This document shows, piece by piece, positions 28,132-38,046 of a DNA stretch of 44,438 nt (the first letter of the stretch is position 1; every line of letters begins with the position of its first letter). The translations under genes were made by a program, and so were the position numbers. This DNA is from Collimonas silvisoli. GTDB lineage: Bacteria; Pseudomonadota; Gammaproteobacteria; Burkholderiales; Burkholderiaceae_D. Location of the stretch: NCBI RefSeq assembly GCF_018305005.1, contig NZ_JAGQEG010000046.1:1-44438 (forward strand), written 5' to 3'. A model generated the notes under the pieces. The model had not been told where the DNA came from. It saw only the letters and a list, made by a program, of their open reading frames with translations, and ran no database searches.

Positions 28132-28323
28132 TCCTATCGGGTTTTTCGGAAACGTTACTTTTCGTTACCAATTAATCCTATCTTTTTGTTATTTGGTGAG
28201 CCCTTGTAAACCAATTCACGCTTTAGTGCGTTACAGATAATTGCAGGGTGTTGAAACCGGCACATGCAAAAATTTCAGCATTCACGTAAGTATCGTCCTA
28301 TTGCATTGCCTCATTGCTCACTC

Positions 28324-30480
28324 ATGAAAAACATCGAAATTCTCCGCATCATGTCGCTACGCGGACCAAATATCTGGACGTATCGACCAACTCTTGAGGC
28401 GTGGATCGACATCGGCGAACTGGAAGATTTCCCCTCCAATACCCTGCCCGGCTTTAACCAGCGCCTGACCAGCTGGCTGCCTTCCCTGATCGAGCATCGC
28501 TGCAGCTACGGCGAACGCGGCGGTTTTGTGCAGCGGCTGCAAGACGGCACCTGGCCCGGCCATATTCTCGAACACGTCACGCTGGAATTGCAAAACCTGG
28601 CCGGCATGCCCGGCGGTTTCGGCAAGGCGCGCAGCACCTCGGTGCGCGGCGTCTACAAGGTTGCGGTCCGCGCGCGCCATGAACAAGTGACCCGCGCCGC
28701 CATGCACGCCGCCCGCGACCTGGTCATGGCGGCGATTGAGGACAAAAAATTCGACGTTCCTGCCACCATCGTTGAACTGCGCAGCATGGTGGATTCGCTC
28801 TGCCTGGGACCAAGCACGGCCTGTATCGTGGATGCGGCAAATGAGCGGCGCATCCCCTCTTTCCGCCTCACTGAAGGCAATCTGGTGCAGCTCGGCCACG
28901 GCATTCGCCAGCGCCGCATCTGGACCGCGGAAACCGATCAAACCAGCGCCATCGCCGAAAGCATCTCCAGCGACAAAGACTTGACCAAAAACTTGCTGCA
29001 AGCTTGCGGCGTGCCGGTGCCGGAAGGACAACTGGTGGAAAGCGCCGCAGAAGCCTGGGAAGCGGCCGAAGATATCGGCTTGCCGGTGGTCGTCAAGCCG
29101 TCCGATGCAAATCATGGCCGCGGCGTCTTCATCGACCTCAAGACCCGTACTGAAATCGAAACCGCTTACGAACTCGCATTGCAAGAAGGCAGCAGCGTCA
29201 TTGTCGAACGTTTCATTCGCGGCAATGAGCATCGGCTGTTGGTCGTCGGCGGCCGGCTGGCGGCAGCTGCGCGCGGCGAGCCGCTGTCAGTCACAGCCGA
29301 TGGCAGTTCGACCATCCGGCAACTGATAGACAGGCAGATCAATTCCGACCCGCGCCGCGGCGAACTCGAAGAATGTCCGCTAAGCCTGGTGTTGCTGGAT
29401 GAAGAACCGGTGGTGCGGGTGGAACTGGAGAGGCAAGGCTATACCGGCGAATCGATCCCCGCAGCAGGCCAGCAAATATTAATCCAACGTAACGGCAACG
29501 TCGCCATCGACGTCACCGATCTGGTACATCCCAGCGTCGCCGCCGCAGCGTCGCTGGCGGCACGCGTGGTCGGCCTGGATATTGCCGGCGTCGACCTGGT
29601 GGCCGAAGACATTTCCCGTCCGCTGGAAGAACAGCGCGGCGCGATCGTCGAAGTCAATGCCGGCCCCGGCTTGCTGATGCATCTGAAACCGGCTGAAGGC
29701 AGGCCGCGCCCGGTGGGCAGGGCCATCATCGAGCACCTGTTCGCCGCGGCCGACAATGGCCGCATCCCGATCGTCGGCGTCACCGGCACCCATGGCAAAA
29801 CCACCGTCTCGCGCCTGATCGCCTGGCAACTCCACTTGAGCGGCAACCATGTCGGCCTGGCTTGCGGCGACGGCCTCTATTTCGCGCAGCGGCAAGTCGA
29901 AAAAGGCGACCGCGCCAATTGGGAATCGGCGCAACGGGTGCTGATCAACCGCGCAGTCGAAGCCGCCGTGTTCGAGAACAGCCACGAGACCATCCTGTCG
30001 GAAGGCCTGGTCTACGACCGCTGCCAGGTCGGCGTCGTCACCAATATTGCCGCCGACGACAGCTCGCCGCAGTACTACATCGGCGACGCCGAGGAAATGG
30101 TGAAAGTGACCCGGACCCAGGTCGATGTCGTCTTGCCGGGCGGCGTCGCCGTGCTGAACGCCGCCGATCCGCTGGTAGCGGGCATGGCGCCGTTGTGCGA
30201 CGGCGAAGTGATTTTCTTTGGCCTCGACCCTGCCCTGCCGGTGATTGCAGAACAGCTTGAGCAAGGCAAGCGTGCGGTCTTTATCCGCAATGACCAGATC
30301 ATGCTGGCCATCGGCAAGAACGAAACGCTACTGGCCGACATCACCACCGTGCCGTTGATTGCCCGCAGCAAAGACCGCTTCCAGATTGAAAATGTATTGG
30401 CGGCAGTGGCTGCCGCATGGGCGCTGGACATCTCTCACGATTTGATGCGTGCAGGGATAGAGACTTTCGAGATGGTTTAA
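28324..30480 (+). CDS. cphA': Cyanophycin synthetase-like protein CphA' (short form)
   Basis: 718 aa. Domains in order: N-terminal domain (ILRIMSLRGPNIWTYRPTLE to about 160), ATP-grasp domain (SSDKDLTKNLLQACGVPVPE, VVVKPSDANHGRGVF, IVEVNAGPGLLMHL; about 220-475), and a Mur-ligase-like central domain with P-loop GVTGTHGKTTVSRL near residue 483. The chain stops at AVAAAWALDISHDLMRAGIE, where the full-length paralogue next door continues for about 145 residues with the Mur C-terminal domain. Mur motifs also differ from the neighbour (NSHETILSEGL instead of TARGGILREGL). The ATG at 28324 matches the family start; the frame is open to 28264. A terminator follows. The real reaction is uncertain. 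Confidence 0.9.
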   Translation: MKNIEILRIMSLRGPNIWTYRPTLEAWIDIGELEDFPSNTLPGFNQRLTSWLPSLIEHRCSYGERGGFVQRLQDGTWPGHILEHVTLELQNLAGMPGGFGKARSTSVRGVYKVAVRARHEQVTRAAMHAARDLVMAAIEDKKFDVPATIVELRSMVDSLCLGPSTACIVDAANERRIPSFRLTEGNLVQLGHGIRQRRIWTAETDQTSAIAESISSDKDLTKNLLQACGVPVPEGQLVESAAEAWEAAEDIGLPVVVKPSDANHGRGVFIDLKTRTEIETAYELALQEGSSVIVERFIRGNEHRLLVVGGRLAAAARGEPLSVTADGSSTIRQLIDRQINSDPRRGELEECPLSLVLLDEEPVVRVELERQGYTGESIPAAGQQILIQRNGNVAIDVTDLVHPSVAAAASLAARVVGLDIAGVDLVAEDISRPLEEQRGAIVEVNAGPGLLMHLKPAEGRPRPVGRAIIEHLFAAADNGRIPIVGVTGTHGKTTVSRLIAWQLHLSGNHVGLACGDGLYFAQRQVEKGDRANWESAQRVLINRAVEAAVFENSHETILSEGLVYDRCQVGVVTNIAADDSSPQYYIGDAEEMVKVTRTQVDVVLPGGVAVLNAADPLVAGMAPLCDGEVIFFGLDPALPVIAEQLEQGKRAVFIRNDQIMLAIGKNETLLADITTVPLIARSKDRFQIENVLAAVAAAWALDISHDLMRAGIETFEMV

Positions 30481-30486
30481 AAATTT

Positions 30487-30524
30487 AAGCAGGGTCGGCA
30501 CTTTTTGCCCACCCTGCTTTTTTT
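30487..30524 (+). terminator. Intrinsic terminator between cphA' and cphA
   Basis: The stem AGCAGGGT and ACCCTGCT, extended by GGC/GCC after one C-C mismatch, closes an A/T-rich loop and is followed by a run of T (519-524). It starts 7 bp after the cphA' stop, and cphA begins 28 bp beyond it. It should reduce or regulate readthrough between the two synthetase genes. Confidence 0.85.
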
Positions 30525-30551
30525 GATTAGTAACAATAGGAAAACTTGTTG

Positions 30552-33122
30552 ATGGACGTATCACGTATCCGAGTACTTCGCGGCCCCAATCTGTGGAGTC
30601 GACATACCGCTATCGAAGCCATCGTGTCTTGTACCGATGCCGAGCGCGCCATCGCAGGCATCGCGGGTTTCGAAGCCAGGCTACGTGAACGCTTCCCACA
30701 GATCGGCTTCCTGGAAGCAAGCGGCAAAAGCGAAGTGGTCTCGATGGCCCACGCATTGGAGATTGCCGCGCTCGGACTGCAATCGGAAGCCGGTTGCCCG
30801 GTCACTTTCAGCCGCACCGTGCCCACGCTGGAAGCCGGCGTCTATCAGGTAATCGTTGAATACACTGAAGAAGATGTCGGCAAGCTGGCTTTCCGACTGG
30901 CGCAGGAGCTGTGCCTGGCAGCGCTGGAAGACAAGCTTTTCGATCTCACCGGCGCCTTGGCCAACCTGCAGGAACTGGACGAAGACATCCGCCTCGGACC
31001 AAGCACCGGCTCCATCGTGCAAGCCGCCGTAGCGCGCGGCATTCCATTCCGCCGCCTGACCGGCGGCAGCATGGTGCAATTCGGCTGGGGCAGCCGCCAA
31101 CGCCGCATCCAGGCGGCCGAAACCAACCACACCAGCGCCATCGCCGAATCGATCGCCCAAGACAAAGACCTGACCAAAAAGCTGCTGAACGCTGCCGGCG
31201 TGCCGGTGCCTATGGGCCGGGTGGTCAGCAGCGCCGAAGAAGCCTGGGCTGCAGCCCAGGAAATCGCCGGCCCGGTGGTGCTCAAACCGCGCGACGGCAA
31301 TCAAGGCAAGGGCGTGGCGGTCAACATCACCGCCCGCGAACAAATCATGGCGGCCTTTGAAGTCGCTGCAAAAATCTGCTCGGAAGTCATCGTCGAGCGC
31401 TATCTGCCGGGCCACGATTTCCGTCTGCTGGTAGTCGGCAAGCAACTGATTGCCGCCGCCCGCCGCGATCCGCCGCAAGTCATCGGCGATGGCGTGCGCA
31501 GCATCAGCCAGTTGGTGGAGCAGGTCAATAGCGACCCGCTGCGCGGCGAAGGCCATGCCACTTCACTGACCAAAATCCGCTTCGATGCGATCGCCCTGGC
31601 CACCTTGGCCAAGCAGAATTACAGCGCCGATTCGATTCCGCAGCAAGGCGTGCGCGTGGTCTTGCGCAACAACGCCAACCTGAGCACCGGCGGCACCGCG
31701 ACCGATGTCACCGAAGATGTCCATCCGGAGCTGGCGGCACGTGCAGTGGCTGCGGCGCAAATGGTGGGCCTCGATATCTGCGGCGTCGATGTGGTCTGCA
31801 ACAATGTTCACCAACCGCTGGAAGAACAGGAAGGCGGCGTAGTCGAAGTCAACGCCGCACCCGGCTTGCGCATGCACATCAGCCCTTCCTACGGCAAGGG
31901 CCGCGCAGTCGGCGCCGCCATCATGTCGACCATGTTCAAAGACGGCGACAACGGCCGCATCCCGCTGGTAGCGGTGGCCGGCACCAACGGCAAAACCACT
32001 ACCGTGCGCCTGATCGCCCACCTGCTGGGCCGCAAAGGGCTGCGCGTCGGCATGACCAATTCCGACGGCGTCTACATCGAACAGCAACGCATCGACACCG
32101 GCGATTGCAGCGGTCCGCGCAGCGCCCGCAATGTCTTGATGCACCCGGACGTCGACGCCGCCGTGTTTGAAACCGCGCGTGGCGGCATCTTGCGTGAAGG
32201 CCTCGGCTTCGATCGCTGCGATGTCGCCGTGGTCACCAACATCGGCATGGGCGATCACCTCGGCCTGAGCTATATCAGCACGGTGGAAGACCTGAGCGTG
32301 GTCAAACGCGTGATCGTCGAAAACGTCGCCCCTGGCGGCCATGCCGTCTTGAACGCGGCCGATCCGATGGTCGCCAGCATGGCCAAATCCTGCTCCGGTT
32401 CCGTCACCTTTTTCGCCCACGATTTCCATCACCCGCTGATGACCACCCACCGCGCCCAAGGGCATCGGGTGGTGTACCAGGACGGCAACGCCATCGTCGC
32501 CGCCAAGGGCAAGCAAGAGCATCGGATAGCGCTGCAAGAAATCCCGCTGACCCGCAACGGCACGATCGGCTTCCAGATCGAAAACGCCATGGCGGCGATT
32601 GCCGCCGCCTGGGCCTTGAACCTGGATTGGGATGTGATCCACGCCGGCCTCGGCACCTTCATCAACGACGCCGCCACCGCACCAGGCCGCTTCAATGTAT
32701 TCGACTATCGCGGCGCCACCCTGATTGCCGATTACGGCCACAACCCGGATGCGATCCAGGCGCTGGTAAAGGCCATCGACAGCATGCCCGCCAAACGCCG
32801 CTCGGTAGTCATCAGCGGCGCCGGCGACCGGCGCGATATCGACATCCGCCATCAGACTGAAATCCTCGGCGACGCCTTCGATCAGGTAATCCTGTATCAA
32901 GACCAATGCCAGCGCGGCCGCGCCGACGGCGAAGTGCTCGGCCTGTTGCGCGAAGGCCTGCAAAATGCCCGCCGCACCACGTCGACCGAAGAAATCAACG
33001 GCGAATTTGTCGCCATCGATACCGCCTTGTCGCATCTGTCGCCGGGCGATCTTTGCCTGATCCTGGTCGACCAGGTGGAAGAAGCGTTGGCGCATATTGC
33101 CAAGCGTATCGCTGAAGTTTAG
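30552..33122 (+). CDS. cphA: Cyanophycin synthetase (full length)
   Basis: 856 aa, typical length. It polymerises aspartate and arginine into cyanophycin, an insoluble nitrogen store, using ATP. N-terminal domain (RIRVLRGPNLWSRHTAIEAI), ATP-grasp (QDKDLTKKLLNAAGVPVP, VVLKPRDGNQGKGVAV, VVEVNAAPGLRMHI) that adds Asp to the backbone, and Mur-ligase-like domain (VAVAGTNGKTTTVRLIAHLL at about 474, FETARGGILREGLGFDRCDV, NIGMGDHLGL) that adds Arg to the side chain. The C-terminal domain includes IADYGHNPDAIQALVKAI and VISGAGDRRD. The ATG at 30552 is chosen over two in-frame TTG codons just upstream. No cyanophycinase gene is present in the window. Confidence 0.96.
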   Translation: MDVSRIRVLRGPNLWSRHTAIEAIVSCTDAERAIAGIAGFEARLRERFPQIGFLEASGKSEVVSMAHALEIAALGLQSEAGCPVTFSRTVPTLEAGVYQVIVEYTEEDVGKLAFRLAQELCLAALEDKLFDLTGALANLQELDEDIRLGPSTGSIVQAAVARGIPFRRLTGGSMVQFGWGSRQRRIQAAETNHTSAIAESIAQDKDLTKKLLNAAGVPVPMGRVVSSAEEAWAAAQEIAGPVVLKPRDGNQGKGVAVNITAREQIMAAFEVAAKICSEVIVERYLPGHDFRLLVVGKQLIAAARRDPPQVIGDGVRSISQLVEQVNSDPLRGEGHATSLTKIRFDAIALATLAKQNYSADSIPQQGVRVVLRNNANLSTGGTATDVTEDVHPELAARAVAAAQMVGLDICGVDVVCNNVHQPLEEQEGGVVEVNAAPGLRMHISPSYGKGRAVGAAIMSTMFKDGDNGRIPLVAVAGTNGKTTTVRLIAHLLGRKGLRVGMTNSDGVYIEQQRIDTGDCSGPRSARNVLMHPDVDAAVFETARGGILREGLGFDRCDVAVVTNIGMGDHLGLSYISTVEDLSVVKRVIVENVAPGGHAVLNAADPMVASMAKSCSGSVTFFAHDFHHPLMTTHRAQGHRVVYQDGNAIVAAKGKQEHRIALQEIPLTRNGTIGFQIENAMAAIAAAWALNLDWDVIHAGLGTFINDAATAPGRFNVFDYRGATLIADYGHNPDAIQALVKAIDSMPAKRRSVVISGAGDRRDIDIRHQTEILGDAFDQVILYQDQCQRGRADGEVLGLLREGLQNARRTTSTEEINGEFVAIDTALSHLSPGDLCLILVDQVEEALAHIAKRIAEV

Positions 33123-33182: not shown

Positions 33183-34862
33183 TCAGGCCTGACGTTTCAC
33201 AGGTCCCTTGGTGGCTGCGCGATGAGAACGAGTCAAGGCCGTTTGCAATCGGCCAAGCCCGGCCGACACATCCTTCCCGGTATCGAACAGCAACGCTTCA
33301 AGATGATCGCTCAGTATCTGTATCACTGCGTGATAGTGCGGCAGCGCCGGTGCAGGAAATGCCTGAATCTGTTGCGCCTCTGCCAGTTGCCCCATCACGC
33401 CGATGACGCGATTGCGCTGCAATACATAACGGTCCTCGGCTACCGAATAGCGCGCATTGCCGGCCGCGCCGTGCAGCACAAAGTATTTCATCAGTTCCGG
33501 CGAAGTCAGCGTCTCAATCGCCTTCCAGGCGCGCTGTGCAGCGCTGTCATGGCTGCTGGACGGAATCGCCAGCAGGGCGCCGCCTAGGGGTGAAATCGGC
33601 GTCATGCCGGGCGCAAACGTCGGATGCAACTGCAAACCGATACGGCCGCCTTTTTGCAATAGCGCATGACTGTCGAGCATGCCGTGACGGTTCGACCAGC
33701 CGTAGCACATCGCGGCTTGTCCGCGCCCGAATATCTGTGCGCTGCGTACCCAATGAGCACTACGCAGCTGGGCTTGCGAATAAGGAAGCAGCGCACGCAA
33801 ATATTCGCAGACCCGCCGGCCCGCCTCGGTATCGACCATCAGCACGCCGGCGTCGCCGGAAAGTGCGCCTTGCGCACCCAGAATCTGTAAGAACGTCTCG
33901 GCGATCGGCAGGCCCGGCGCGGCGCTCCACGTAATTCCGGCGCGCGCTCGACTGGGCCGGTGCAACACGCGAGCACATTCGATGACGTCTTCAAAGCAAC
34001 GTGGCGGCGACAATCCCTCTGCATCGAACAGATCCTGCCGATACCAGAGAAAATCCAGCGTCGGCTGGATCGGCATGCCATACAGACGCCCCTGGCACCA
34101 GCCGGCACGCCATACGGCATCGTAGAAATCGGCGCCGGATACCTGGCCGCCCGCTTCCAGCATTTGCAAATCGAGCAGCCGTCCGTCGCGACAAGACTCT
34201 GCCAGCCACGGAAACGGAATGGCTACCAGCACAGGCGCGGCCGGAGCCGGGGTAAGGCTCGACGACGGCGCCAGGGCGGCGTCGAGCATCGGCCGATAGG
34301 TATCTTGCGGGTAGGTCAGGATGCGCAGCCGCATGCCCAGGAAGCGTTCAACATCGGCGCGATTCTGTTTGATGATGTCGAACACCGGATCGGCATAGGC
34401 GACCAACGTCAATTCGACCGCCGCATCAAAGCCAGATGCGGCGGGACGCGGCCATGCGATATCGGCGGCGGGGTTCAGGGTTACTGCATTGAAGCGGTCG
34501 AACGATTGTGTGTCGACCGCATCCACCAGTAGCTTGATGGTGTGCCCGGTGATGCTGTCGAGGCGGTCCAGCAGCAAAGCCGAAGGCGTGACCTGAGCGC
34601 GATTGCTGTGCGCCGACATCGGCGGCAGCTGCAGCCATCCCTGCGCCTTCAATCCAAAGATGATGCGGCGCGCGCTGCTGCGCGGCAGGCCGGAGAGATC
34701 GGCGAGCGCGGTGATGGTCGTGTGACGGCCGCTCAGAAAATTTCGCAGCAGCGCACTGAGAATCGGCCACGCGCCCTGAGCCGCCTCGCCGAGTTCGGAA
34801 CGCAGTATGTCCAGCAGCTTGTCAACGATAGTGATCGCCGCATAGCGGTCGAGTCCGTGCAT
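33183..34862 (-). CDS. Winged-HTH protein fused to a family-1 sugar-binding-protein domain (putative sugar-responsive regulator)
   Basis: 559 aa without a signal peptide or membrane helix. Residues about 35-90 form an IclR/MarR-like winged helix (TTITALADLSGLPRSSARRI followed by LKAQGWLQL). From about 150 to 515 the chain looks like an ABC solute-binding protein of family 1: GRLYGMPIQPTLDFLWYRQD, LFDAEGLSPPRCFEDV, then GGALLAIPSSS and AWKAIETLTSPELMKYF. A good GAGGAG ribosome binding site precedes the ATG. It is divergent from a carbohydrate operon with a palindrome between. The likely reading is a cytoplasmic regulator that senses a sugar with a binding-protein domain; a secreted binding protein is unlikely because there is no export signal. 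Confidence 0.75.
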   Translation of the reverse strand: MHGLDRYAAITIVDKLLDILRSELGEAAQGAWPILSALLRNFLSGRHTTITALADLSGLPRSSARRIIFGLKAQGWLQLPPMSAHSNRAQVTPSALLLDRLDSITGHTIKLLVDAVDTQSFDRFNAVTLNPAADIAWPRPAASGFDAAVELTLVAYADPVFDIIKQNRADVERFLGMRLRILTYPQDTYRPMLDAALAPSSSLTPAPAAPVLVAIPFPWLAESCRDGRLLDLQMLEAGGQVSGADFYDAVWRAGWCQGRLYGMPIQPTLDFLWYRQDLFDAEGLSPPRCFEDVIECARVLHRPSRARAGITWSAAPGLPIAETFLQILGAQGALSGDAGVLMVDTEAGRRVCEYLRALLPYSQAQLRSAHWVRSAQIFGRGQAAMCYGWSNRHGMLDSHALLQKGGRIGLQLHPTFAPGMTPISPLGGALLAIPSSSHDSAAQRAWKAIETLTSPELMKYFVLHGAAGNARYSVAEDRYVLQRNRVIGVMGQLAEAQQIQAFPAPALPHYHAVIQILSDHLEALLFDTGKDVSAGLGRLQTALTRSHRAATKGPVKRQA

Positions 34863-34952: not shown

Positions 34953-34973
34953 AAATAACCAGAATGGTTATTT
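34953..34973. promoter_or_regulatory. Candidate operator palindrome in the divergent region
   Basis: A perfect inverted repeat AAATAACC-agaat-GGTTATTT lies 91 bp upstream of the HTH-SBP gene and 89 bp before the sugar-binding-protein gene, almost at the midpoint. A minus-strand -10-like TAAAAT (34943-34948) is next to it, so binding could block one promoter and control the other. A second, looser repeat ATGACT/AGTCAT with a 12-bp spacer is at 35008-35031. Confidence 0.6.
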
Positions 34974-35061
34974 TCGAATGTCCGCCCGCGGATGCTGCGG
35001 CCGTAACATGACTACGCCACAGAGCAGTCATCAAACCAACCAAACCATCAGGAGACAAAGC

Positions 35062-36081
35062 ATGAGACGAGTAGCCATCCGGCTTGCGGCCTTCGCTATC
35101 CTTGCGTTCAGCGCGCATGCATTCGCCGCAGAGGCACGGTTCGTATTGATCACGCACGCGCCCGATTCGGATCCATTCTGGAACGTGGTCAAGAATGCGA
35201 TCAAAGACGCCGGGCAGGACTTCGGCGTCACGGTGCATTACCGCAATCCGCCGAACGGCGACCTGGCCGACATGACGCGCATCCTGGAGCAGGTCGCGGC
35301 GCACAACTACGACGGCGTCATCACCACCATTCCCGACTTCGACATCGTGCAAGCACCGATCCGCAGGATCGCCGCAAAACATATTCCGCTCATCACCTTC
35401 AATTCGGGCACCGATCGGCAGAGCGAAGCATTGGGCGCCTTGCTGCACATCGGACAGCGCGAATACGACGCCGGCAAAGCGGCCGGCGAACGGGCAAAAG
35501 CCGCCGGCGTCAAGTGCTTCCTGTGCGTCAACAACAATGTGACCAATCCCGAATCGTTCGAGCGTTGCCGCGGCTTCGGCGATGCGATCGGCGCGGACTT
35601 CAAGCAGTCGACGCTCGACTCAGGCAACGATCCCACCGAGGTCGAGAACCGCGTGTTCGGAACCTTGAGCAAACGCCCGGATATCCAAGCCATCCTTACA
35701 CTCGGCCCAACCTCCGCTGTGCCATCGCTGCGGGCGGTGCAAAAGCGCCGTCTGACCGGCAAGATCTATTTCGCCACCTTCGATATGACGCCTGAGATCA
35801 ACCAGGCCATTGCAGCGGGCACGGTAGCGTTCGCAGTCGACCAGCAACCCTATCTGCAAGGGTATATCCCGGTGGCCATGCTAGCCATCATGCGACGCGA
35901 CAAGATGCAGAATATCGATCAGGCACGCAAGACGCTGCTGGCGGACGCCAATTTCCAGCGGCGCCTCAAACTGTATGGGCTGATCCCGCATTTCGGCCCT
36001 CGCCACGTCGCCACCGGCCCCAGCTTCGTCACCCGCGACAACGTCGAGCTGGTCGAGAAATACGCGGGCCAGTATCGCTGA
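35062..36081 (+). CDS. Periplasmic sugar-binding protein of CUT2/RbsB type (orphan)
   Basis: 339 aa with a clear signal peptide (RRVAIRLAAFAILAFSAHAF then AAEA). The mature part is a type-I periplasmic binding fold (Peripla_BP_4): RFVLITHAPDSDPFWNVVKN, YDGVITTIPDFDIV, PLITFNSGTDR, FATFDMTPEINQAI and AVDQQPYLQGYIPV. Family members deliver ribose-like sugars, inositol or similar polyols to an ABC importer. The ATG at 35062 is preceded by AGGAG; the frame is open further up but the start there would lose the signal peptide. No permease or ATPase gene is beside it, so it must use a transporter encoded elsewhere or serve in sensing. Confidence 0.9.
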   Translation: MRRVAIRLAAFAILAFSAHAFAAEARFVLITHAPDSDPFWNVVKNAIKDAGQDFGVTVHYRNPPNGDLADMTRILEQVAAHNYDGVITTIPDFDIVQAPIRRIAAKHIPLITFNSGTDRQSEALGALLHIGQREYDAGKAAGERAKAAGVKCFLCVNNNVTNPESFERCRGFGDAIGADFKQSTLDSGNDPTEVENRVFGTLSKRPDIQAILTLGPTSAVPSLRAVQKRRLTGKIYFATFDMTPEINQAIAAGTVAFAVDQQPYLQGYIPVAMLAIMRRDKMQNIDQARKTLLADANFQRRLKLYGLIPHFGPRHVATGPSFVTRDNVELVEKYAGQYR

Positions 36082-36170: not shown

Positions 36171-36968
36171 ATGTTTCAACTAGCGATATGCGCTGAAATG
36201 GTCTTTCAGGATTTGCCGTTTGTCGACCGAGTTCGAAAAATCCATGACTTGGGCTTTCAAGTCGAGATCTGGGACTGGACCCGGCACGACCTCAACGCGC
36301 TGGCGCGAACCGGCGCCCGCTTTTCGTCGATGACCGGTTATATCGAAGGCGATCTGATCACCGCTGCAGGCGCAGATGCCTTGCTGCGCACCGCCGAACA
36401 ATCCATCGAAGCCGCCGGCAGGCTCGGCTGCCCCCGCCTCAATTTGCACGGAACCGGCCTCGACGCTGCGGGACTGCCGGTCCAGCCGATAGCGGCGGCG
36501 TCCGGCCCCATGTGGCTGGCGGCGCAGCGCACGCTGACGCGCATCGCCGAGTTAGGGCAACGCGCGGGCCTGGTGTTCTGCCTCGAAAACCTGAACACCG
36601 AGGTGGATCACCCAGGAGTGCCGTTCGCCCGCGCAGCAGACACGCTGGCGCTGGTGAGCGCAGTCGACAGTCCGCATCTGCGGCTCAATCTCGATCTCTA
36701 TCACGCGCAGATCGGCGAGGGCAACCTGATCGAACTGGTGCGGCGCGCACTGCCGTATATCGGTGAGATTCAGGTGGCCGACGTGCCCGGACGATGCGAA
36801 CCCGGAACCGGCGAGATCAACTATCCAGCCATTGCCCGCGCACTGGCAAGCGCCGGTTATCGCGGCACTATCGGCCTCGAAGCGTGGGCCAGCGGCGGCA
36901 GCGAGCAGGCGTTGCGGCGCTTCCGGGACGCCTTCACCGTTTCGACGGAAGCAATCACGAATCGGTAA
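36171..36968 (+). CDS. TIM-barrel sugar isomerase/epimerase (hydroxypyruvate isomerase-like)
   Basis: 265 aa, AP-endonuclease-2-like TIM barrel, hydroxypyruvate isomerase branch. It starts FQLAICAEMVFQDLPFVDRV and shows barrel motifs FQVEIWDWTRHDL, GCPRLNLHGTG, LVFCLENLNTEVDHPG (metal-binding Glu), LRLNLDLYHAQIGEGNLIEL (Asp and His ligands), IGEIQVADVPGRCEPGTGEI and GTIGLEAW (last Glu). Members interconvert hydroxypyruvate and tartronate semialdehyde, or epimerise ketoses or inosose. The substrate cannot be fixed, but the neighbours (binding protein, Gfo/Idh/MocA dehydrogenase) suggest a sugar or polyol catabolic step. It is 89 bp after the binding-protein gene, with TTGGAG before the ATG. 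Confidence 0.85.
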   Translation: MFQLAICAEMVFQDLPFVDRVRKIHDLGFQVEIWDWTRHDLNALARTGARFSSMTGYIEGDLITAAGADALLRTAEQSIEAAGRLGCPRLNLHGTGLDAAGLPVQPIAAASGPMWLAAQRTLTRIAELGQRAGLVFCLENLNTEVDHPGVPFARAADTLALVSAVDSPHLRLNLDLYHAQIGEGNLIELVRRALPYIGEIQVADVPGRCEPGTGEINYPAIARALASAGYRGTIGLEAWASGGSEQALRRFRDAFTVSTEAITNR

Positions 36969-37026: not shown

Positions 37027-38046
37027 ATGAAACAGAATAAAACAGTCAAGGTCGGCCTGATTGGCGCCGGTGCGATCGGTTCGTTCCACGGCGAGAGTAT
37101 CGCGCGCCGGGTGCCTGGCGCGCAGCTCGCCGCGATCGCAGATCCGGCGGCTGAGGCAGCCCAACGCCTTGCAGACCGGCTGCATTGCGCCAGTGCGACT
37201 ACCGATGTCCAGCAGATCATTACCGATCCCGATATCGACGCGGTCATCATCGCCGCCCCGGCACGGTTTCACAGCGAACTCATCGTCATGGCGGCGGAGG
37301 CCGGTAAAGCAGTGTTCTGCGAAAAGCCGATGGCGCTGACGATCGAAGAAGCCGACCGGGCGATCGCCGCTGCGCGCGCAGCAAAAGTGCCGTTGCAAGT
37401 CGGCTTCAATCGCCGCTACGACAATGCCTGGGCCGAAGCGCAACGCAGCATCGTCGCCGGCGAGCTGGGAACGCCGCAATTGCTGCGCTCGCTGACGCGC
37501 GACCCGGAACTGGCCGATCCTGCGCGCGTTCCGCCATGGGCGATCTTTCTGGAAACGCTGATTCACGACTTCGATACGCTGCGCTTCTTCAACCCCGGCT
37601 CGGAGGTGATCGAAGTCTATGCCATCGCCGACGCACTGGTGCGGCCGGACTTCAAGTCGCGCGGCCTGCTCGATACCGCGCTGGTCAGCCTGCGCTTCGA
37701 CAACGGCGCGATGGCCTGCGCCGAAGCGAACTTCCAGGCGGCCTACGGCTACGATGTTCGCGGCGAAGTATTCGGTTCAAGGGGGATGGTGACGATGGGA
37801 GACGTGCGCCGCTCGAATGCGGCCTACTTCGGCGCAAACGGGATAAACAGCCCCACCACGCAGCTCAACATCGATCTGTTTCACGATGCCTATACGGCGC
37901 AATTGGTCGAATTCGTCGCAACGGTCCGCTCGGGTGAGGTGCAAGGGCCAAGCGGCGAAGCCGCGCGTGCCGCACTCGCCCTTGCGCTCGCGTGCATTCG
38001 CTCGGTCACTGAAGCGCGGCCGGTCCGGCTGGCGGAGGTATTGTAA
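37027..38046 (+). CDS. Gfo/Idh/MocA-family oxidoreductase (inositol 2-dehydrogenase-like)
   Basis: 339 aa NAD(P)-dependent sugar or polyol dehydrogenase. The Rossmann start KVGLIGAGAIGSFHGESIAR is followed by AVIIAAPARFHSELIVMAAE, the cofactor-binding EKPMALTIEEAD motif (Lys active site) and QVGFNRRYDNAWAEA. The C-terminal substrate domain has LIHDFDTLRFFN with the conserved Asp-His region, then GRGEVFGSRG-like residues (RGEVFGSRGMVTMGD). It looks like myo-inositol 2-dehydrogenase (IolG) rather than glucose-fructose oxidoreductase, but the substrate is inference. AACAGGAA precedes the ATG. It is the last gene of the operon and converges closely with the MFS gene. Confidence 0.88.
   Translation: MKQNKTVKVGLIGAGAIGSFHGESIARRVPGAQLAAIADPAAEAAQRLADRLHCASATTDVQQIITDPDIDAVIIAAPARFHSELIVMAAEAGKAVFCEKPMALTIEEADRAIAAARAAKVPLQVGFNRRYDNAWAEAQRSIVAGELGTPQLLRSLTRDPELADPARVPPWAIFLETLIHDFDTLRFFNPGSEVIEVYAIADALVRPDFKSRGLLDTALVSLRFDNGAMACAEANFQAAYGYDVRGEVFGSRGMVTMGDVRRSNAAYFGANGINSPTTQLNIDLFHDAYTAQLVEFVATVRSGEVQGPSGEAARAALALALACIRSVTEARPVRLAEVL

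Follow-up and report, generated by a model that had tools for sequence, protein, structure and literature searches.

Regulators of the LysR family join a winged helix-turn-helix (wHTH) domain to an effector domain with the two-lobe type-II periplasmic-binding fold, and the sensor domains of LacI have the type-I fold. MarR proteins dimerise via long helices before and after the wHTH, and MarR and IclR-type modules are repressors more often than activators. SgrR of E. coli and DsvR of Vibrio cholerae are described, in the accessible portion of the preprint PMC13060122, as an SgrR_N HTH combined with an SBP_bac_5 domain. That LacI/GalR regulators combine a DNA-binding head with a relative of the sugar-binding periplasmic proteins is stated in the accessible portion of Juarez et al. 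2018 (PMC6079105), which deals with laboratory-made fusions in which a periplasmic binding protein is attached to a DNA-binding domain.

Here, we have analysed a contig of 44,438 nucleotides from the soil bacterium Collimonas silvisoli (NZ_JAGQEG010000046.1, hereafter the window), in which an open reading frame on the minus strand (33183-34862, ATG start, 559 residues) encodes a MarR/IclR-like wHTH joined to a whole family-1 (SBP_bac_1/8, type II) sugar-binding protein; we call it HTH-SBP. A preliminary description of this DNA had recognised an IclR/MarR-like HTH at the N-terminus and the hallmarks of a family-1 solute-binding protein (SBP) behind it, and both readings agree with our results. 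In Pfam, three models exceed their curated cut-offs: HTH_IclR at residues 37-77 (E 1.1e-6), SBP_bac_8 at 207-475 (E 7e-15) and SBP_bac_1 at 228-456 (E 4.6e-12); the motifs quoted for the binding protein are present. A MarR_2 match is below its curated cut-off, and no NCBIfam model was found at or above its cut-off for this protein. Pfam, the alignment and the whole-protein model count residues without the initiator methionine, and 1 should be added to these numbers.

The solved protein nearest to HTH-SBP by sequence is the sugar SBP 5iai, matched over residues 148-527, and a profile of 53 family members matched 5iai with an E of 1.8e-56, spanning residues 29-421 of its 422. AlphaFold, given the family alignment as input, modelled the whole protein with a mean pLDDT of 89.6 as a helical wHTH module (2-114), a weak linker (119-130) and an SBP domain (about 145-550). 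Placed on the minus strand of the window, the module of residues 1-118 (34509-34862) is predicted by AlphaFold, Foldseek and Pfam HTH_IclR to consist of an N-terminal helix, the wHTH with a recognition helix at about 61-73, a wing and a long C-terminal helix. It is followed in the AlphaFold model by a linker of about residues 119-144 (34431-34508), of which 119-130 is a low-confidence stretch, and by a complete type-II family-1 SBP domain of about residues 145-551 (33210-34430), assigned from Foldseek and the profile match to 5iai. Sugar SBPs are among the best 50 of the 1715 Foldseek matches to the whole model, and 5iai comes first among these 50 (E 6e-24, TM 0.87 on the target); the SBP domain is about 20% identical to solved SBPs. 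An N-terminal part that does not fold as an HTH had been named beforehand as evidence that would speak against the proposal. Modelled alone, residues 1-121 (pLDDT 88.5) form an HTH, and the Foldseek matches to this model are mostly MarR-family regulators, at a modest best E of 5e-4 and TM-scores of about 0.4-0.65. Long helices are predicted to flank the wHTH on its N- and C-terminal sides in the manner of MarR.

HTH-SBP is similar to SgrR and DsvR in having an N-terminal HTH, a C-terminal type-II solute-binding domain and a link to sugar metabolism, as far as the accessible portion of PMC13060122 describes them, but the sensor of SgrR belongs to SBP family 5 and that of HTH-SBP to family 1/8. 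SBP_bac_5 was matched by Pfam in K-12 SgrR, which served as positive control, and in none of the 53 aligned members at E 0.01. SgrR_N is absent from the window protein and was found in one of the 53 members, at E 0.0099. Compared pairwise, HTH-SBP and SgrR are similar over some 45 residues of the HTH only (27% identity, E 0.017); the HTH alone was aligned in a profile comparison, with a probability of 7%. LysR-type regulators likewise have a wHTH and a type-II binding fold, but HTH-SBP, unlike them, has kept a whole importer SBP of about 400 residues, and neither HTH_1 nor LysR_substrate was present in any of the 53 members at E 0.01. The sensor of HTH-SBP is of type II, family 1, and that of LacI is of type I; at the same threshold the LacI HTH and the type-I sugar-binding domain are absent from all 53 members. 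The DNA-binding module matches HTH_IclR as in the IclR family, and the IclR C-terminal effector domain is again absent from all 53 at E 0.01. MarR proteins match the HTH module in predicted fold but are small and stand alone, whereas the MarR-like module of HTH-SBP precedes an SBP of about 400 residues. The preliminary description had held that such a fusion is not among the textbook regulator families. This was too strong a claim, since SgrR/DsvR and LysR already pair an HTH with a type-II fold; the part of it that stands is that the SBP family is a different one. A search of the literature on HTH and binding-protein fusions, judged by titles and abstract openings and lying mostly outside subscription journals, found no paper on the HTH-SBP family, and no experiments on any of its members were found. 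We judge HTH-SBP to be a one-component regulator with a binding-protein sensor, of a kind already known but distinct in the SBP family that it uses, and the HTH-SBP family looks like a little-known family of sugar sensors.

Scanning a species-genome collection with the alignment gave 335 confirmed relatives, the best 80 of which were kept as loci. These 80 come from Burkholderiales, Rhodobacterales, Rhizobiales, Halomonas, Saccharospirillum and Vibrio penaeicida, and 78 of them have an open reading frame of 500-720 residues. Identity is 63-90% in Burkholderiales and about 27-31% in Rhodobacterales, Rhizobiales, Halomonas and Vibrio. On plasmids, tblastn matched 201 records, 33 of them with at least 80% of the protein covered; the best 40 of the 201 include Paraburkholderia at 60-62% identity and, at 24-29%, Shinella, Rhizobium, Phaeobacter, Skermanella, Agrobacterium, Aminobacter and others. 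Among 100 near genomes, a full-length match is found in the genome itself and in one genome of the same genus (G007; 90% identical), and the gene is patchy within the genus, with a full-length match in one of the 14 other same-genus genomes (G001-G014). Queried with the single protein at E 1e-15, 369 genomes of the class gave, besides the genome itself, only one match, a partial one to an SBP part. When 398 genomes were drawn from the phylum, matches reached E 1e-60 in six (the genome itself included), each time over nearly the full length, and the family is therefore widespread but sparse.

The alignment used for structure prediction and Pfam holds 52 of the 80 loci and the window protein (the 53 members), and the HTH alignment 29 loci and the window protein. 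Two loci, L063 and L083, have an HTH-SBP reading frame that is interrupted or partial in the matched frame and were left out of the protein alignments. SBP_bac_1 and SBP_bac_8 were matched in all 53 members, behind an alignable N-terminal module, and in this survey of homologues the fused wHTH and SBP architecture is kept. HTH_IclR was matched at E 0.01 in 15 of the 53 and MarR_2 in 13, so that the HTH assignment rests partly on predicted fold and alignment; in the alignment columns of the HTH, A63 and R65 are invariant, and T48 and G74 are at least 90% conserved. In a tree of the SBP domain only, for which 51 of the 90 available fused rows and 29 ordinary SBPs were taken, the 51 fused proteins group in a single clade with support 100/97, and the ordinary SBPs lie outside it. 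As several of the ordinary rows lie on long branches and were flagged by the tree program, we take the tree as giving no sign of repeated fusion among the SBPs sampled, and not as proof of a single event.

Divergent from the HTH-SBP gene, on the plus strand, are three genes that are its likely targets. They encode an exported type I sugar-binding protein (35062-36081; Peripla_BP_4, and rhizopine-SBP-like, below the cut-off of that model), a xylose-isomerase-like TIM barrel (36171-36968; similar to hydroxypyruvate and 2-oxo-tetronate isomerases, below those cut-offs) and a Gfo/Idh dehydrogenase (37027-38046; inositol 2-dehydrogenase-like, 325 bits vs a cut-off of 355). The start of the first gene was set at 35062 because an AGGAGA and a signal-peptide-like start are found there; the start at 34978 was dropped in its favour, very probably correctly. 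Within the window, no permease or ATPase lies beside this type I SBP. Its 59%-identical paralogue elsewhere in the genome (G000:C35:10130-11128, L138) adjoins a permease-like ORF, named by eye, and the orphan type I SBP may for that reason serve the transporter of the paralogue. In Paraburkholderia largidicola, the same set of type I SBP, TIM-barrel isomerase and inositol 2-dehydrogenase-like enzyme is found beside the HTH-SBP gene.

A survey of gene neighbourhoods had been proposed as a check on the role of the protein, and sugar-type transporter genes and catabolic genes do adjoin most homologues. To label the neighbours in the 80 loci, we compared them by BLAST with a reference set from the window and from annotated plasmid loci, a procedure that is rough for large superfamilies. 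By these labels, part of an Rbs-type transporter or a type I SBP is present in 75 of the 80 loci and a type I SBP in 48; in 24 loci, the first labelled gene upstream, at most 1500 nt away, is a type I SBP in divergent orientation. Many of the accompanying transporters thus have an exported SBP of another fold, as would be expected if the fused SBP is a sensor and not a part of transport. Maleylacetate reductase and intradiol dioxygenase are each found in 15 of the 80 loci, and a cluster with a TPP-dependent dehydrogenase is recurrent (E1 alpha in 19/80). The annotated plasmid loci agree in part with a sugar-transporter neighbourhood; some plasmid members instead lie next to genes for dehydrogenases and ring cleavage, and the annotation shows no sugar ABC transporter in their vicinity. 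As the gene sets differ between loci, the regulator appears to serve several pathways.

Two of these gene sets can be described more closely. A catabolic cluster that accompanies many members (L068, L075, L085, L093, L100, L122, L149, L152, L153) consists of an SDR, a Xaa-Pro peptidase-like protein, TPP E1 alpha and beta, in some cases a lipoyl E2, and a semialdehyde dehydrogenase. The Halomonas-type loci (L084, L086, L088, L094, L099, L104, L107, L118) have a sugar-type ABC transporter together with maleylacetate reductase, an amidohydrolase and an intradiol dioxygenase, and thus oddly combine sugar uptake with ring cleavage of the hydroxyquinol type; nothing useful on an inositol-to-hydroxyquinol route was found in the literature.

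The divergent intergenic region contains an operator-like palindrome, AAATAACCA-GAA-TGGTTATTT, at 34953-34973, with all nine of its nine arm bases paired. It lies exactly where the preliminary description had placed it, and it recurs as an operator-like element in most of the loci tested. In the window it is the sole match at up to three mismatches, with none in 100 shuffles. The genome has this one perfect site and otherwise only sites with three mismatches (13 vs 10 for the control per strand), and because these are near the control rate the regulon looks local. A promoter scan found no sigma-70-like promoter near the palindrome, whose position is therefore no pointer to repression or activation. 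Upstream regions of Burkholderiales keep 12-18 of the 18 palindrome positions in 15 rows, the window included; these correspond to 14 distinct loci, L002 and L043 being apparently the same Collimonas genome (same contig coordinates). Shuffled versions of these regions average about 10 of 18, with maxima of 12-15, and the weak sites of L050, L042 and L052 (12, 14 and 13 of 18) compare with shuffle maxima of 12, 14 and 12, respectively.

An exact-consensus pattern had 17 matches in 35.8 kb of upstream sequence vs 16 in 1602 kb elsewhere and was found in 17 of 92 loci, eight of these 17 being the Burkholderiales used as its model. It was rejected as too strict for remote members, and a matrix built from 13 of the Burkholderiales sites only was used instead. 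The test set was 64 of the 69 non-Burkholderiales loci, five loci under 9 kb being left out. A site of at least 15 bits was found in 48 of the 64 loci (69 sites altogether) and no such site in the other 16, vs a mean of 1.2 loci and a maximum of 17 for 100 permuted palindromic motifs, and 28 control loci (100 kb) gave no site at this score; the test loci are not independent, as Halomonas and its close kin account for 15 of the 64. Sixty-four of the 69 sites are outside labelled coding spans and five inside, though these spans make up 57% of the bases and genes outside the labelled set were counted as non-coding. The consensus of the 64 is AaATATCCA-N3-TGGATATtT, and 61 of the 69 sites are both outside coding spans and at most 400 nt upstream of a labelled gene, namely a type I SBP (17), an SDR (15), an Rbs permease (12), the HTH-SBP regulator (12) or others (5). 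The mean best upstream matrix score is 4.7 vs a mean of -3.9 and a maximum of -1.0 for 60 permuted motifs. An earlier statistic counted loci with the best site at most 400 nt upstream of the regulator and gave 15 of 77 (controls: mean 5.4, maximum 11); it is the weaker one because in many loci the site precedes the neighbouring operon. Four further genomes, none of them among the 80 loci, all have their best site in the interval between HTH-SBP and a type I SBP, at 13.4 to 30 bits (3/4 at 15 bits or above); in each, another copy with a lower score (9.2-13.2 bits) is found at a distance of 21 nt. Tandem operator-like pairs exactly 21 nt apart, i.e. two helical turns, were observed in L068, L085, L101, L117, L149, L152, L153 and L155. 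Such a spacing suggests co-operative binding.

Support from the computation extends to the architecture, the predicted fold, the lack of an evident export signal, the single clade, the neighbourhood and the conserved palindrome, the last of which speaks indirectly for binding to a palindromic operator. From these we infer DNA binding, dimerisation, the nature of the ligand and repression over activation, and we consider it highly likely that HTH-SBP is a cytoplasmic, dimeric, ligand-responsive one-component regulator, probably a repressor, of a sugar/cyclitol operon with the palindrome as its operator. The MarR-like wHTH module would dimerise and bind the palindrome, AAATAACCA-N3-TGGTTATTT in one or two copies, between the HTH-SBP gene and the divergent sugar/cyclitol operon. 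As the sensor, a whole family-1 ABC-importer SBP would have been retained in the cytoplasm, where its lobes may close on a sugar, polyol, cyclitol or early breakdown product and thereby change the dimer. The changed dimer would most likely leave the operator, with induction of both the operon and the HTH-SBP gene itself. Members of the proteobacterial family share the architecture and, in most loci tested, the proposed CCA-N3-TGG operator core. An inositol-like compound as the ligand at the Collimonas locus is our guess, made solely from its neighbours, the rhizopine-like SBP and the inositol dehydrogenase-like enzyme. In evolutionary terms, it is likely that HTH-SBP stands for an unnamed and widespread proteobacterial one-component family, in which an importer SBP moved to the cytoplasm, probably once, was joined to a MarR-like module and spread over sugar, cyclitol and aromatic-ring operons while keeping the CCA-N3-TGG operator, a recruitment separate from those of LacI, LysR and SgrR.

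Could HTH-SBP instead serve an ABC importer as a genuine periplasmic binding protein, one that carries an unusual N-terminal extension? ABC permeases do adjoin its homologues, which is one half of what the preliminary description had said would count against a regulator, and 10 of the 11 annotated plasmid records examined carry the label 'extracellular solute-binding protein'. The other half, an export signal in the homologues, was not evident, in keeping with the earlier claim that the protein has no signal peptide. Within the first 60 residues, 15-residue hydropathy peaks at 1.05 in HTH-SBP vs 2.13 in the divergent type I SBP, and a value of 1.8 or above is reached by one of 79 full-length fused proteins vs 30 of 59 SBP neighbours; the exception is L102, for which the start was probably placed further upstream than it should be. 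This measure, with N-termini read by eye, is a crude one whose SBP positive control passes only half the time, and we regard the result as supportive, not decisive. A stronger argument against export is the HTH modelled at the extreme N-terminus, since the extension is predicted to be a well-folded MarR-like module. With a separate type I SBP in the 48 loci noted above, we find an exported HTH-SBP extremely improbable.

Nor do we favour the suggestion that the palindrome belongs to another regulator and lies near the HTH-SBP gene by coincidence. GntR, ROK, LysR and response regulators do occur in at least some loci, but the loci were picked solely for the HTH-SBP gene, they represent several orders and catabolic sets, and most of them share the site; moreover, none of the four window neighbours scanned has an HTH domain, and such a coincidence would be very unlikely. 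Only slightly less unlikely is a regulator whose SBP has lost ligand binding and is kept for oligomerisation or protein interaction. Ligands can be lost in SBP-fold domains, and identity to solved SBPs is low here, as given above. On the other hand, the whole domain is kept, W218, R274, W370, G426 and G427 are invariant in the 53 members and Y386 nearly so, and the SBP domain and the wHTH are on average conserved to similar degrees (0.56 and 0.58, respectively). The direction of control is where the ligand-responsive regulator that we propose has its most serious competitor, namely an activator acting from an operator upstream of the divergent promoter. The palindrome is about 90 nt upstream of both start codons, and the tandem copies in other members suit activation as well as repression, but modules of the MarR and IclR type are more often repressors. 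An activator is therefore possible though doubtful, and we lean towards repression with induction by the ligand as the likelier direction.

Given the transport label on 10 of 11 annotated plasmid records, regulators are likely hidden under it. Recognising members of the HTH-SBP family would identify a regulator and an operator motif, and thereby predict a regulon, for a large number of so far unassigned operons of the sugar, cyclitol and hydroxyquinol type. They would also be natural counterparts of the sensors that synthetic biologists have built by hand from importer binding proteins and DNA-binding domains: as far as the accessible portion of PMC6079105 goes, the engineered fusions share the design idea of HTH-SBP, and HTH-SBP is natural and found in many species. 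Elsewhere in the window, at 28264-33122, there are two tandem cyanophycin-synthetase-like ORFs of 738 and 858 residues (named by eye), the first of which is apparently shorter at its C-terminus.
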